45,851 nucleotides of DNA, from the NCBI GenBank assembly GCA_945891385.1, contig CAMDDJ010000023.1, positions 1 through 45,851 on the forward strand, in the 5' to 3' direction. The stretch is from Candidatus Kuenenia stuttgartensis. GTDB taxonomy: Bacteria; Planctomycetota; Planctomycetia; Pirellulales; UBA1268. Every line of letters begins with the position of its first letter. Positions within the stretch are counted from its first letter, which is position 1. Shown piece after piece: positions 1 through 45,851 of the stretch. Under the pieces are notes generated by a model that was not told the origin of the DNA, did not search any database, and worked only from the letters and a program-made list of their open reading frames with translations. The position numbers and the translations under genes were made by a program.

Positions 1-146
1 GTTTGACGGGGCGGAGGCGAAGTCATGTGGTGGGTCGGGGTCGCCCATGCCCCGTCGCCGGACGTTCGCTGCCGTTTGACGGGGCGGAGGCGACGTCATG
101 CGGTGGGTCGGTGCCGCCCATGCCCCGTCGCCGGACGTTCGCTGCG
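1..146. repeat. Tandem 73-bp repeat, two units
   Basis: Two units start at 1 and 74, each opening GTTTGACGGGGCGGAGGCGA and ending GGACGTTCGCTGC. They differ at a handful of positions. The same pair of units is present inverted at 4884-5029, so the duplication predates the copying of element A or spread with it. The window starts on the first base of a unit, so more units may lie upstream. Confidence 0.85.
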
Positions 147-546
147 CCCATCCTGGGCTTCGCTCACTCCGAGATACCTGCGCTCCGCCATCCATGGCTC
201 CGCTGGTTATCTAGGCCGGCTCGTGGGGCACGGGCGACCCCGACCGAACGACGCGTTTGAAGTGCCCAAAGCCACACCACCTCTCAGGCACGCAGCGGGC
301 AAAGCCCGCGCCGCGTGCCAGACAGTTCTCGCGCCGTCACCGCCGACCCGCGTCGGCTCCGGCTTTCAGGCACGCAGCGGGCGAAGCCCGCGCCGCGTGC
401 CATCCGGGTCGCCCCGCCTCGACGACAGTCCGCGCAGACAGGGCAACCACTCCTCGAGAGCCGCACGCCATCGGCCGCCAGGAAGGCGGCCGGCCGGGCG
501 GAGGCCCGGCTAGCTCAGCGGGGCCAGGGATGGCCCGCTGAGCGCT
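1..546 (-). repeat. Repeat element A, copy 1 (downstream of tsf)
   Basis: About 546 bp, cut by the window start. Read on the minus strand it begins GCGCTCAGCGGGCC exactly at the tsf stop codon and runs away from the gene. It is a near-identical inverted copy of 4484-5035. It contains a tandem 73-bp unit (1-73 and 74-146), two hairpins built on AGGCACGCAGCGGGC, and palindromes such as GCCGGGCCTCCGCCCGGC. Open frames cross it on both strands, but they mirror the GC-rich repeat and match no family I recognise. No transposase is present. Function unknown. Confidence 0.85.
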
Positions 547-1382
547 TAAGACAGCTTCCAGTTGTCGACGCTCACGATCTCGATGCCGGCTTGATTGGCG
601 AGCTGGCCGACGGAGAGCTTGTCGTCCTTCACGAAGGGCTGCTCGAGCAGGACGCACTGGGCGAAGAAGTTTCGCAGCCGGCCCTCGATCATCTTGGCGA
701 TGATGTTCTCGGGCTTGCCTTCCTTGCGGGCGGCTTCCGTGAGAATCTCCCGCTCCTTGTCGACGACGGCCGGGTCGAGGTCTTCTTTGCGAACCGCCTG
801 TGGGGCCAGGGCGACCACGTGCATCGCGATGTCCTTGGCGGTCTCGGCTGCAGCCGCAGCTGCGGCACCTGCGATCTCCACGATCGCAGCCTTCGAGCCG
901 TCGTGGTGGGCATAGCCGCCACAGGCCGCGTTGATCCGCTTGATCCTGGAGAGCTCGAAGACCTCCCGCATCCGATTGAAAAGATCGTCTTTGATTTCGC
1001 CGAGGGTCTTGTCTGGATGAGCCAGGCTCTTCTGGGCCAGGAGTTCCTCGGGGGTCGCCGCTCCGGGCCCGAGGGCCAGGGTCTTGGCGATGTCGTTGCA
1101 AAAGTCTTTGAAATCGGGACTGGCCGCCACCGGCGGGCTCTCACACTTCAGCTCGATGATCGCGCCGACGCCCTTGGCTGGGTCGGTGTAGACGGCCAGC
1201 CGGCCACAGGAGGTTTCGCGATCGGCCCGCATCGACTGGGTCTTGATGCCCTGCTTCCGCAGCCAGTCGACGGCCTGCTCCGTGTTGCCGCCACATTCGG
1301 CGAGAGCCTTCTTGCACTCCATCATCGGGAGTCCGGTCTTTTCCCTGAGCGCCATCACGGCGGCGGCGGTGATCTCAGCCAT
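546..1382 (-). CDS. tsf: Translation elongation factor Ts
   Basis: EF-Ts is the guanine-nucleotide exchange factor for EF-Tu. The 278-aa product is of normal length and opens with the family signature (residues 11-29, LREKTGLPMMECKKALAE), followed by the dimerisation/core domains. The ATG at 1382 is chosen over the one at 1388: AGGAG abuts the 1388 ATG but sits 6 nt from 1382, and MAEIT is the usual EF-Ts start. It lies 106 bp downstream of rpsB, the classic rpsB-tsf pair. Oddity: the nearly universal TDFV motif, which carries Asp80 and Phe81 in E. coli, reads S82-P-P-V here, while flanking sequence aligns well. Its stop abuts repeat element A. Confidence 0.96.
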   Translation of the reverse strand: MAEITAAAVMALREKTGLPMMECKKALAECGGNTEQAVDWLRKQGIKTQSMRADRETSCGRLAVYTDPAKGVGAIIELKCESPPVAASPDFKDFCNDIAKTLALGPGAATPEELLAQKSLAHPDKTLGEIKDDLFNRMREVFELSRIKRINAACGGYAHHDGSKAAIVEIAGAAAAAAAETAKDIAMHVVALAPQAVRKEDLDPAVVDKEREILTEAARKEGKPENIIAKMIEGRLRNFFAQCVLLEQPFVKDDKLSVGQLANQAGIEIVSVDNWKLS

Positions 1383-4200: not shown

Positions 4201-4476
4201 ATGACGGGCGAAGAACTCCAATCTCGAAGGCTCTACGAGCAACTCCAGCCTGGAGATCGGGTGGAGGTCATCCACGGCGTCACCGTGGGCTCGAGCGGAT
4301 CTTGGAAGACCACGACGGTCGGCCGCGTGCTCCGCACTGAACGCCGACGACATGGCCTCCACTTCCGCCGCAACCCCGACGACAAGGTCTACAGCGACGT
4401 TCTGATCCTCGCGCGGGACGACGGCGAACTCACCACCGTCACGATCGACGAGTTCACCCGACTGAAGAAGTTCTGA
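4201..4476 (+). CDS. Small conserved-type hypothetical protein
   Basis: A 91-aa soluble protein starting 7 nt after the ilvC stop, so it is probably co-transcribed and perhaps translationally coupled. It has no signal peptide, membrane segment or Cys. The middle reads like a small beta-rich fold (PGDRVEVIHGVTVGSS, then VGRVLRTERRRHGLHFRR), with a basic patch that could bind nucleic acid; that is only an impression from composition. I do not recognise the family. AAGGAG inside the end of ilvC lies about 13 nt upstream. Repeat element A begins 7 nt after its stop. Confidence 0.7.
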   Translation: MTGEELQSRRLYEQLQPGDRVEVIHGVTVGSSGSWKTTTVGRVLRTERRRHGLHFRRNPDDKVYSDVLILARDDGELTTVTIDEFTRLKKF

Positions 4477-4789
4477 CTACTAAAGCGCTCAGCGGGCCAT
4501 CCCTGGCCCCGCTGAGCTAGCCGGGCCTCCGCCCGGCCGGCCGCCTTCCTGGCGGCCGATGGCGTGCGGCTCTCGAGGAGTGGTTGCCCTGCCTGCGCGG
4601 ATTGTCGTCGAGGCGGGGCGACCCGGATGGCACGCAGCGCGGGCTTTGCCCGCTGCGTGCCTGTAAGCCGGAGCCGACGCGGGTCGGCGGTGACGGCGCG
4701 AGAACTGTCTGCCGCGCAGCGCGGGCCTTGCCCGCTGCGTGCCTGAGAGGTGGTGTGGCTTCGGGCACTTCAAACGCTTCGTTCGGTCG

Positions 4790-4919
4790 GGGTCGCCCGT
4801 GCCCCACGAGCCGGCCTAGATAACCAGCGGAGCCATGGATGGCGGAGCGCAGGTATCTCGGAGTGAGCGGAGCCCAGGATGGGCGCAGCGAACGTCCGGC
4901 GACGGGGCATGGGCGACCC
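4790..4919 (+). other. Core structured module of element A, copy 2
   Basis: A 130-nt module whose ends pair over 16 nt with one G/T wobble. Inside are an outer stem AGATAACC/GGTATCT holding the hairpin GCCA-TGGA-TGGC (4832-4843), and the hairpin GCCCA-GGA-TGGGC (4872-4884). The module at 18020-18151 has the same plan with different stem sequences. Confidence 0.7.
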
Positions 4920-5029
4920 CGGCCCACCACATGACGTCGCCTCCGCCCCGTCAAACAGCAGCGAGCGTCCGGCGACGGGGCATGGGCGGCACCGACCCAC
5001 CGCATGACGTCGCTTCCGCCCCTGCAAAC
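4884..5029. repeat. Tandem 73-bp repeat, two units (inverted copy)
   Basis: Reading the minus strand, units start at 5029 (GTTTGCAGGGGCGGAAGCGA) and 4956 (GTTTGACGGGGCGGAGGCGA), the same 73-bp period as at 1-146. The outer unit is the more diverged. The bamA stop lies 14 bp beyond. Confidence 0.8.
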
Positions 5030-5042
5030 GGCAGATCAGGCC

Positions 5043-15420: not shown

Positions 15421-15498
15421 GGCTCGGGGACGGCAAAAGTCGCGTCGCGGGCGAGGATACGCCCCCATGCTCCGCGAGCGTTCGCCGATCCCCGAGCC
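15421..15498 (+). repeat. Family B repeat, full copy
   Basis: 78 bp closed by GGCTCGGGGACGGC and GCCGATCCCCGAGCC (one bulge), with an inner hairpin GGGCG-AGGATA-CGCCC (15449-15464). About 4 differences in 59 nt from the copy at 38250-38308. Confidence 0.8.
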
Positions 15499-15588
15499 TC
15501 CGCACGGGAGTTGTTCGTCCGCTGCCGCCGTTGACTAGGATTGAGCGTCTCGGCCTTGCTTCCCCCCGTCTCCGAAACACCCGCTCTC

Positions 15589-17939: not shown

Positions 17940-18277
17940 CACGCCCACCCGGGCCTGGGGCCAGGTTTTCCGAGACGAGCCTGCCAACCCCTCACGTCAG
18001 GAAAAAACGTTTGCCGGGAGGGTGTTCCCATACCCCGAGAGCCGGCGTTGGCGGCAAGCAAAGGCCGGATGCCGAAAGCGCAGCCGGCATCGAGCGAGCG
18101 GAGGGCAGGATGCCCGCAGCGAGCGTCCGGCGACGGGGTATGGGAACACCCGACCCCACGACGGGTGACACCGATCGTGGCCGGACGGGCCAGCCACCGG
18201 GCTACCCTTTTCGAGGTAGCCGAGGCCCCGATGCCGATCGGGCGACCTGGACGAAACGGCGGTGTAGCATCGAAGGC
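17940..18277. other. Intergenic region with a structured element
   Basis: 338 bp between the hydroxypyruvate isomerase gene and the GH25 gene. Besides the module at 18020-18151 it has TAGCAT at 18265-18270, 7 nt before the proposed GTG start of the next gene, without a recognisable -35 box. The frame of the next gene is open through the region, but that reading covers the repeat and gives Arg/Pro-rich sequence. Confidence 0.6.
18020..18151 (+). other. 132-nt structured module related to element A
   Basis: Closed by a perfect 17-bp inverted repeat: GGGTGTTCCCATACCCC (18020-18036) and its complement (18135-18151). Inside are GATGCCG/CGGCATC and GGGCA-GGA-TGCCC (18103-18115). It shares AGCGAGCGTCCGGCGACGGGG-type sequence and layout with 4790-4919, but the closing arms differ and still pair. 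It could be an RNA domain, a terminator or a non-autonomous mobile unit. Confidence 0.65.
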
Positions 18278-38232: not shown

Positions 38233-38308
38233 CTCGGGGGCTGAAAGAGTCGCGTCGCGGGCGACGATACGCCCCGATGCTCCGCGAGCGTTCGCCGTCC
38301 CCCGAGCC
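38233..38308 (+). repeat. Family B repeat, full copy between convergent genes
   Basis: 76 bp closed by CTCGGGGGC-type and CCCCCGAG arms, with an inner hairpin GGGCG-ACGATA-CGCCC (38259-38274). It lies 7 bp after one stop codon and about 50 bp before the other, where a bidirectional terminator would be expected. Confidence 0.8.
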
Positions 38309-38358
38309 TCGCGTATGGTCAGTCGGCTCGGTTGCGTTGCACCTGCTCGAGCGGCGGT

Positions 38359-45524: not shown

Positions 45525-45851
45525 GCGCCCGGCGGGCCATCCCTGGCCCCGGCGGGCTTGCCGGGCCTCCGCCCGGCCGGCCGCCTTCCGGGCGGCCGAT
45601 GGCGTGCGGCCTGCGCGGAGTGGTGGCCCTGTCTGTGCGGAGTGACGTCGAGGCGGGGCGACCCGGATGGCACGCTGCGCGAGGCTGCGCCTCGCTGCGT
45701 GCCTGGTGGTTGAGGCCGCTTCGGACACTTCAAGCCCGCGTTCGGTCGGGGTTGCCCGTGCCCCGGAGCCGGCGTATGCAGACGAGCGCAGCAAGGATTG
45801 CGGAGCGACGTCTGCATCCGAGTGAGCGAAGGGCATGGATGCCCGCAGCGA
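45525..45851 (+). repeat. Repeat element A, copy 3 (truncated by window end)
   Basis: Begins GCGCCCGGCGGGCC immediately after the YTV terminator, same orientation as the gene and as copy 2. It keeps the palindromes GCCGGGCCTCCGCCCGGC and GGCCGCCTTCCGGGCGGCC and the long hairpin at 45669-45703, then an outer stem ATGCAGACG/CGTCTGCAT (45776-45817) holding GCAA-GGA-TTGC, and GGGCA-TGGA-TGCCC. It lacks the second long hairpin (4714-4744 in copy 2). The far end lies outside the window. Confidence 0.88.

Follow-up and report, generated by a model that had tools for sequence, protein, structure and literature searches.

A modular folded repeat of one planctomycete family, frequent near gene 3' ends and oriented with replication

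The structured repeat described here is probably a modular, non-autonomous interspersed mobile repeat of the REP/BIME/BOX class, a reading to which we assign a probability of roughly 0.6, and its widely conserved unit is a core of 145 nt. It resembles the REP and BOX repeats of other bacteria and appears to be a relative of theirs that has not been described before. Its orientation to the replication strand is a firmer rule than its orientation to genes. The element's position near gene ends is not new in kind; it is set apart from known repeats by the size of its fold, covariation on one strand, the strength of its replication polarity and the lack of the usual enzyme. No report of this repeat family was found in the open-licence literature.

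Results

Copies in the window

The window, i.e., the whole stretch of 45,851 nucleotides that was analysed, is the entire contig C23 of a source genome of 3.77 Mb (150 contigs, 93.9% complete). As claimed in the original prediction, it holds three long copies of one family, whose 5' ends lie at gene 3' ends: behind tsf, behind a small gene (4201-4476) and behind a YTV gene, where the copy begins right past the T-run of the terminator, 76 nt beyond the stop. The names tsf and YTV were read off the sequence rather than obtained from a family search, and are what we take these genes to be. The copies at 1-546 (-) and 4484-5035 (+) are 95% identical. Each long copy contains several inverted repeats, and the tandem 73-nt unit is present as described, the third copy stopping ahead of the tandem part. 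The claim that no coding sequence can be supported also stands: the three open reading frames tested inside or across the copies yielded no Pfam match above cut-off.

The features are presented in Table 1. In this genome, the long form carries M1 and the GGCACGCAGCG hairpins upstream of the core and the 73-nt unit downstream; there are core-only copies as well, including the one at 18015-18159. In other genomes of the genus, most of the matches listed span element positions ~306-438, which points to the core.

Table 1. Repeat copies in the window and their parts.
Feature	Position	Strand	Remark
Long copy: M1, hairpin modules, core, tandem tail	4484-5035	+	7 nt after small-gene stop
Module M1: three strong hairpins adjoining stop codon	4484-4583	+	
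GGCACGCAGCG-type hairpins, between M1 and core	4629-4749	+	
Conserved 145-nt core: terminal stem and three-way junction	4784-4928	+	model R1, 153.1 bits
73-nt tandem unit repeating core 3' part	4885-5030	+	88% between units
Second long copy, directly 3' of tsf stop, cut by contig end	1-546	-	
Second-copy core	102-246	-	152.8 bits
Second-copy 73-nt tandem unit	1-145 (units 1-72/74-145)	-	94% between units
Third copy, past YTV terminator, cut by contig end	45525-45851	+	
Third-copy core, truncated (model positions 1-108)	45743-45851	+	81.7 bits
Core-only copy, absent from the original prediction	18015-18159	+	131.4 bits

Copy number and distribution

A model search of the genome and its relatives, as had been proposed, revealed a family dispersed genome-wide. 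With a full copy as query and 40 of 199 candidates scored, at least 60 matches were obtained in the genome, far more than chance would give; the core model yielded at least 99 (150 of 5265 scored). Eight contigs (735,507 bases) hold 31 cores and nine more (703,055 bases) hold 19; extrapolating from these 50 cores in 1,438,562 bases gives about 130 per genome, a rough figure given the contigs were picked as the longest or for known matches. Several copies lie at contig ends, as is the case with repeats that break assemblies.

When 60 genomes were searched with stricter filters and at most 53 candidates scored per genome, the core turned up in 34 of the 37 members of one planctomycete family and in none of the 23 genomes from other families of the order. 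In a phylum-wide draw of 293 other genomes, at least two of which also belong to the 60-genome set, no core was found with stricter filters and 10 candidates scored per genome. An exact core pattern occurs in at least 109 stretches of GTDB contigs; among the 80 matches listed, every record carries a planctomycete name, and many have a sample name of lake type. As far as searched, the repeat is restricted to one Planctomycetota family known from lake MAGs. Several repeat-bearing MAGs (L128, L131, L137 and others) are named Candidatus Kuenenia stuttgartiensis or Planctomicrobium piriforme and may be mislabelled. Viral carriage was considered and rejected, since one exact core pattern had no match among viral contigs.

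Core fold and constrained strand

The core consists of a long terminal stem that closes a three-way junction with two arms, usually GGA-capped (GGA is present in 110 of 119 uninterrupted arm-2 loops). Among 42 cores, 24 of the 37 predicted pairs present compensatory changes, and the motif CGTC is invariant in all 42, located internally at the foot of arm 2. Among 123 cores aligned by the model (alignment A2), covariation extends to 29 of 37 pairs, and 96.1% of cells are paired, against 34.6-43.8% with slid partners; none of 500 shuffles reaches any of five pairing measures. Both A2 and a further alignment, A3, were fitted to model R1. Helix 1, the terminal inverted repeat, has 17 pairs with 97.0% of cells paired, and the internal arms covary as well as the core ends. 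The ends are sharp when compared with random flanks (79 cores of the related genome G016).

The fold is constrained on one strand. Cells with G-U outnumber cells with A-C by 183 to 25 in the 123 cores, and by 218 to 23 in 109 cores of G016 and a second related genome, G005. Given an A-C cell on this strand is a G-U cell on the complement, the constraint lies on the strand read here, barring a strong strand bias in mutation itself. With RNA parameters, 209 of 215 cores are predicted to fold more strongly on the sense strand, and with DNA parameters 211 of 215, a predicted bias that fits RNA and single-stranded DNA alike.

Orientation to replication

Within contigs of the source genome, 58 of 73 core pairs share a strand, against 36.8 expected (p 1e-4). 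The replication strand was judged by GC skew at third codon positions; the values for plus and minus genes were averaged, so that gene strand had no influence. In the eight contigs, the C-rich strand carries 28 of 31 cores, while the majority gene strand matches the core strand in 22 of 31. For the nine further contigs, the C-rich strand was predicted beforehand, with core strands known in advance and the skew alone unseen, and it carries 17 of 19 cores. Pooled, 45 of 50 cores are on the C-rich strand (p 4e-9), and all 16 contigs with a majority agree on it, one being tied.

In the same strand comparison, genes yielded 531 of 1090. A control hairpin repeat, which has no replication polarity, yielded 38 of 83; this is a second hairpin family (CTCGGGG...CCCCGAG), present in the window at 15423-15500 and 38233-38310 and in 83 copies in 17 contigs of the source genome. 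Another repeat, with 9 of 9 in the control comparison, is a module preceding some cores and hence no independent control. Of 17 M1 copies, 13 are on the C-rich strand, below the figure for the cores.

On contig C1, the G-rich plus strand carries the ribosomal L2 gene, and the five cores all lie on the minus strand. The folded strand thus appears to run against the leading strand, an assignment anchored by this one L2 gene. In other species, where 3-8 kb flanks were used, the direction is the same and weaker (53/79, 20/30, 55/90 and 18/29); these sets overlap, as the published set includes the assembly that G016 appears to be. Core strands within contigs agree in 58 of 91 pairs for G016 (p 0.02) and in 1 of 3 for G005. 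A 2014 paper reportedly dealt with how replication affects the orientation of transposable elements in bacteria.

Position relative to genes

Module M1 was found 24 times in sequence pieces chosen for holding cores. In the 20 copies with a called upstream gene, it is always in the sense of that gene, and when distance to the nearest stop codon was scored, as originally suggested, M1 began at a median of 4 nt from the stop, with 14 of 20 copies at 15 nt or less. Of the 15 M1 copies with both neighbours in the 17 whole contigs, 10 are tandem-sense and five convergent. Gene calls came from a home-made codon model and, at many loci, relied on short pieces of sequence.

For the cores, 89 of the 99 matches in the source genome entered the context analysis, 83 were placed and 74 had both neighbours; the ten left out were mostly fragments or at contig ends. 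The 178 cores pooled from the source genome, G005 and G016 comprise 71 convergent, 12 divergent, 59 tandem-sense and 36 tandem-antisense cases, so that 166 lie between convergent or tandem genes. The expected fractions are 14.7% convergent and 28.6% divergent, those of the source genome being applied to G005 and G016 too. A permutation on the eight contigs agrees (11 convergent vs 4.1 expected, 2 divergent vs 8.0 expected). Published-set loci of other species include 29 convergent, 5 divergent, 18 tandem-sense and 13 tandem-antisense cases, and the same-genus set 9, 2, 6 and 4, respectively. The nine later contigs by themselves show no convergent bias (1 convergent, 4 divergent, 7 tandem-sense, 6 tandem-antisense and 1 with one neighbour), and there the upstream gene is on the core's strand 8 times and on the opposite strand 11 times.

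The copies are hence non-random relative to genes, the long form being close 3' of stops and the pooled cores favoring convergent spacers. The fixed orientation to genes that had been predicted holds for the M1 long form, yet is not supported for the family as a whole, since over a third of the pooled tandem cores are antisense; outside the M1 form, the gene-sense bias of the cores is modest. The control repeat is likewise enriched between convergent genes (32 of 76), which indicates the 3' location bias is not special to the core element. The 3' location of the cores is thus real when pooled and general to repeats in this genome.

Site turnover and sequence change

None of 21 other genomes of the genus has a core immediately after tsf; the next gene there, by our reading of the sequence, is presumably pyrH-like. 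In four of these genomes (L310, L313, L315 and L321), a core is located 0.9-1.0 kb further past tsf, in the same sense. The tsf protein ends in LGG in 20 of the 21 relatives and in LGE in one, and in KLS here (window 546-560), as if the insertion had replaced the last tsf codons. The tsf-pyrH junction of the relatives is broken here by the repeat at the contig end. Near the orthologue of the small gene, no core was found at 21 loci in 20 other genomes. Insertions differ between species, and the two tested sites lack the copy in the other genomes.

G005 and G016 are about 91% identical near tsf. When the 30 cores of G005 were compared with the 79 of G016, six pairs shared both flanks and the others matched on just one side, which would follow from recombination of cores or rearrangement of flanks. 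At L332, L392 and L419, a single G005 core has an upstream flank matching that of one G016 core and a downstream flank matching that of a different one, a pattern suggestive of rearrangement at cores.

In five orthologous pairs, the core differs by ~6% with no gaps, the coding flanks by ~9%, and the spacer by ~15% with 150 gap columns; these figures were summed by hand, and the sixth both-flank pair aligned badly outside the core. Over all ten pairs, four of which are homologous on one side only, the values are 7.2% for the core, 15.9% for coding and 22.4% for spacer. Purifying selection or gene conversion could each account for the core being better conserved than the spacer. In the six orthologous pairs, 24 of 439 paired columns changed vs 13 of 323 unpaired ones, i.e., stems are no slower, a result that argues against the individual folds being under strong selection where they stand. 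An earlier pair (L144/L180) presented the opposite trend, with 2 of 37 pairs and 8 of 70 unpaired columns changed.

At one orthologous site (L370:1501-1672 vs L353:1501-1646), a hairpin of 26 extra nt is present in the arm-1 loop in one species only, and the rest of that core shows no change at 74 paired positions and one at 42 unpaired positions. In alignment A2, arm-loop inserts of ~27 nt occur in 8 of 123 cores and of ~75 nt in 2 of 123. Given hairpins are found inserted in arm loops, the element also grows by hairpins entering loops.

Mobilising machinery and database identity

Neither a Y1 transposase (PF01797) nor a reverse transcriptase (RVT_1) was matched in the source genome at its 93.9% completeness, and mobilisation within this genome by Y1/RAYT or by reverse transcription was rejected on these grounds. 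Among the 34 core-bearing genomes of the family, many of them incomplete, PF01797 is absent from 20 and RVT_1 is present in 5. A search for target-site duplication on 109 cores gave best offsets barely above or within those of shuffled pairing. No Rfam 15 family scored above its gathering threshold in the window, so a known Rfam family was rejected; the best weak match is RsmW, antisense over M1, with 25.8 bits vs a threshold of 52. CsrA, which prefers GGA hairpins, is present in 60 of 60 genomes of the order, and this universality neither supports nor excludes a role for it.

Discussion

Comparison with known repeats

ERIC and bcr1 repeats are palindromic, intergenic, folded repeats of ~130-155 bp, and by description resemble the present element in size, palindromy, intergenic site and fold; they differ in being from other taxa, and no target duplication was found for the core here. 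REP/BIME repeats of the GTAG- and CGTC-tagged superfamilies are palindromic, intergenic, multicopy elements near gene 3' ends, mostly in convergent and tandem spacers and close to stops, as here; GTAG REPs often supply the TAG stop, CGTC REPs have no dedicated transposase, and REPs are reported in Planctomycetes too (PMC3733652). A REP is a single hairpin of 20-40 bp with a terminal tag, whereas the present core is a three-way junction with extra modules, its CGTC is invariant but internal, its replication polarity is strong, and, unlike GTAG REPs with their associated RAYT (Y1) transposase, it had no match to such an enzyme in its own genome. GTAG-type hairpins exist in these genomes as well: one lies past the small-gene stop in L287, overlapping the TAG stop of that gene in G011, and others adjoin several G016 cores.

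BOX elements are defined by boxA-boxB(n)-boxC sequence modules. Those of Streptococcus pneumoniae are modular, 67-637 bp long, and can encode the stop codon of the preceding gene (PMC3049150). They share a modular, dispersed and structured nature with the present repeat, but belong to an unrelated organism, and the likeness is one of modular organisation. IS200/IS605 elements have folded ends that act single-stranded, use the lagging-strand template and insert in a manner tied to the replication fork (PMC6006769). The likeness lies in the replication-set orientation and lack of target duplication found here; the difference is that no Y1 transposase was matched in this genome and that the constrained strand seems to lie opposite the leading one.

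Alternative explanations

Several points count against the mobile-repeat reading. No Y1 transposase, nor enzyme of any kind, was identified in the source genome; the nine later contigs show no convergent bias, and polarity in relatives is weak when judged from short flanks. The better conservation of the core than of the spacer at shared sites could mean function in place. Moreover, insertion into the lagging-strand template in the IS200/IS605 manner, by itself, would make the active strand the opposite of the one that appears to bear the fold. A possible alternative is a cis-acting 3'-UTR RNA family kept per site, in which each copy serves its gene by protecting the transcript end, by termination, or by recruiting a protein such as CsrA via two GGA hairpins. 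The strong one-strand covariation, the GGA loops, the gap-free cores of the five orthologous pairs and the presence of CsrA would all fit. We nevertheless consider it unlikely: sites turn over at the tsf and small-gene loci, paired columns are no slower than unpaired ones, the gene-sense bias of the cores is modest, CsrA is uninformative by its universality, and gene conversion would equally explain the conservation of the core.

Mobility of another type, that of a conventional MITE moved by a DDE transposase via a terminal inverted repeat of 20-odd bp, is in line with the near-perfect terminal repeat of the core and with its copy number and dispersal, but the absence of a clear target-site duplication in the 109 cores and the covariation of the internal arms, as good as that of the ends, make it improbable. 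The polarity itself, seen both in the C-rich strand counts and in the same-strand pairs, might instead mark a polar DNA signal of chromosome architecture selected for its orientation to replication. KOPS-like and AIMS sequences, which are signals of this kind, are far shorter and less structured than the core; this, together with the core's absence from three genomes of the same family and the weaker polarity in relatives, leaves such a role more doubtful still. Least credible by far is a coding gene or one recent segmental duplication, the latter having been named in the original prediction as what could undo it. The two long copies do contain open reading frames of equal length (162 and 94 aa) and are nearly identical to each other, but the reading frames match no Pfam family above cut-off, changes follow the stem pairing, and the remaining copies are dispersed and 73-91% identical.

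Proposed mechanism and significance

Under the mobile-repeat reading, new copies would come from a transposition step linked to the replication fork, and this coupling would set their orientation. The survivors would be found mainly in 3'-flanking DNA, as genes and promoters would be cleared of insertions, and the copies there would be carried in mRNA 3' ends. By analogy with the REPs of E. coli, an M1 hairpin about 4 nt past the stop should slow ribosomes there or shield the mRNA end; one study reports that E. coli REPs at most 15 nt from a stop codon stall ribosomes (PMC12306157). We also put forward, tentatively and at well under even odds, a more specific proposal: the fold would be held on one replication strand by a fork-coupled mechanism that needs no host Y1 or reverse transcriptase, would grow by loop hairpins, and on the same strand would act as an mRNA 3'-end element, thus serving both its spread and the host.

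REP-class repeats are common, and the present family bears on how they spread without a RAYT gene and on whether their fold serves spread or host. Its many copies per genome, the differing sites of related species, the strand-specific covariation and the orientation tied to replication make both questions testable, and the long form supplies naturally occurring hairpins close enough to stop codons for the ribosome stalling reported for REPs.
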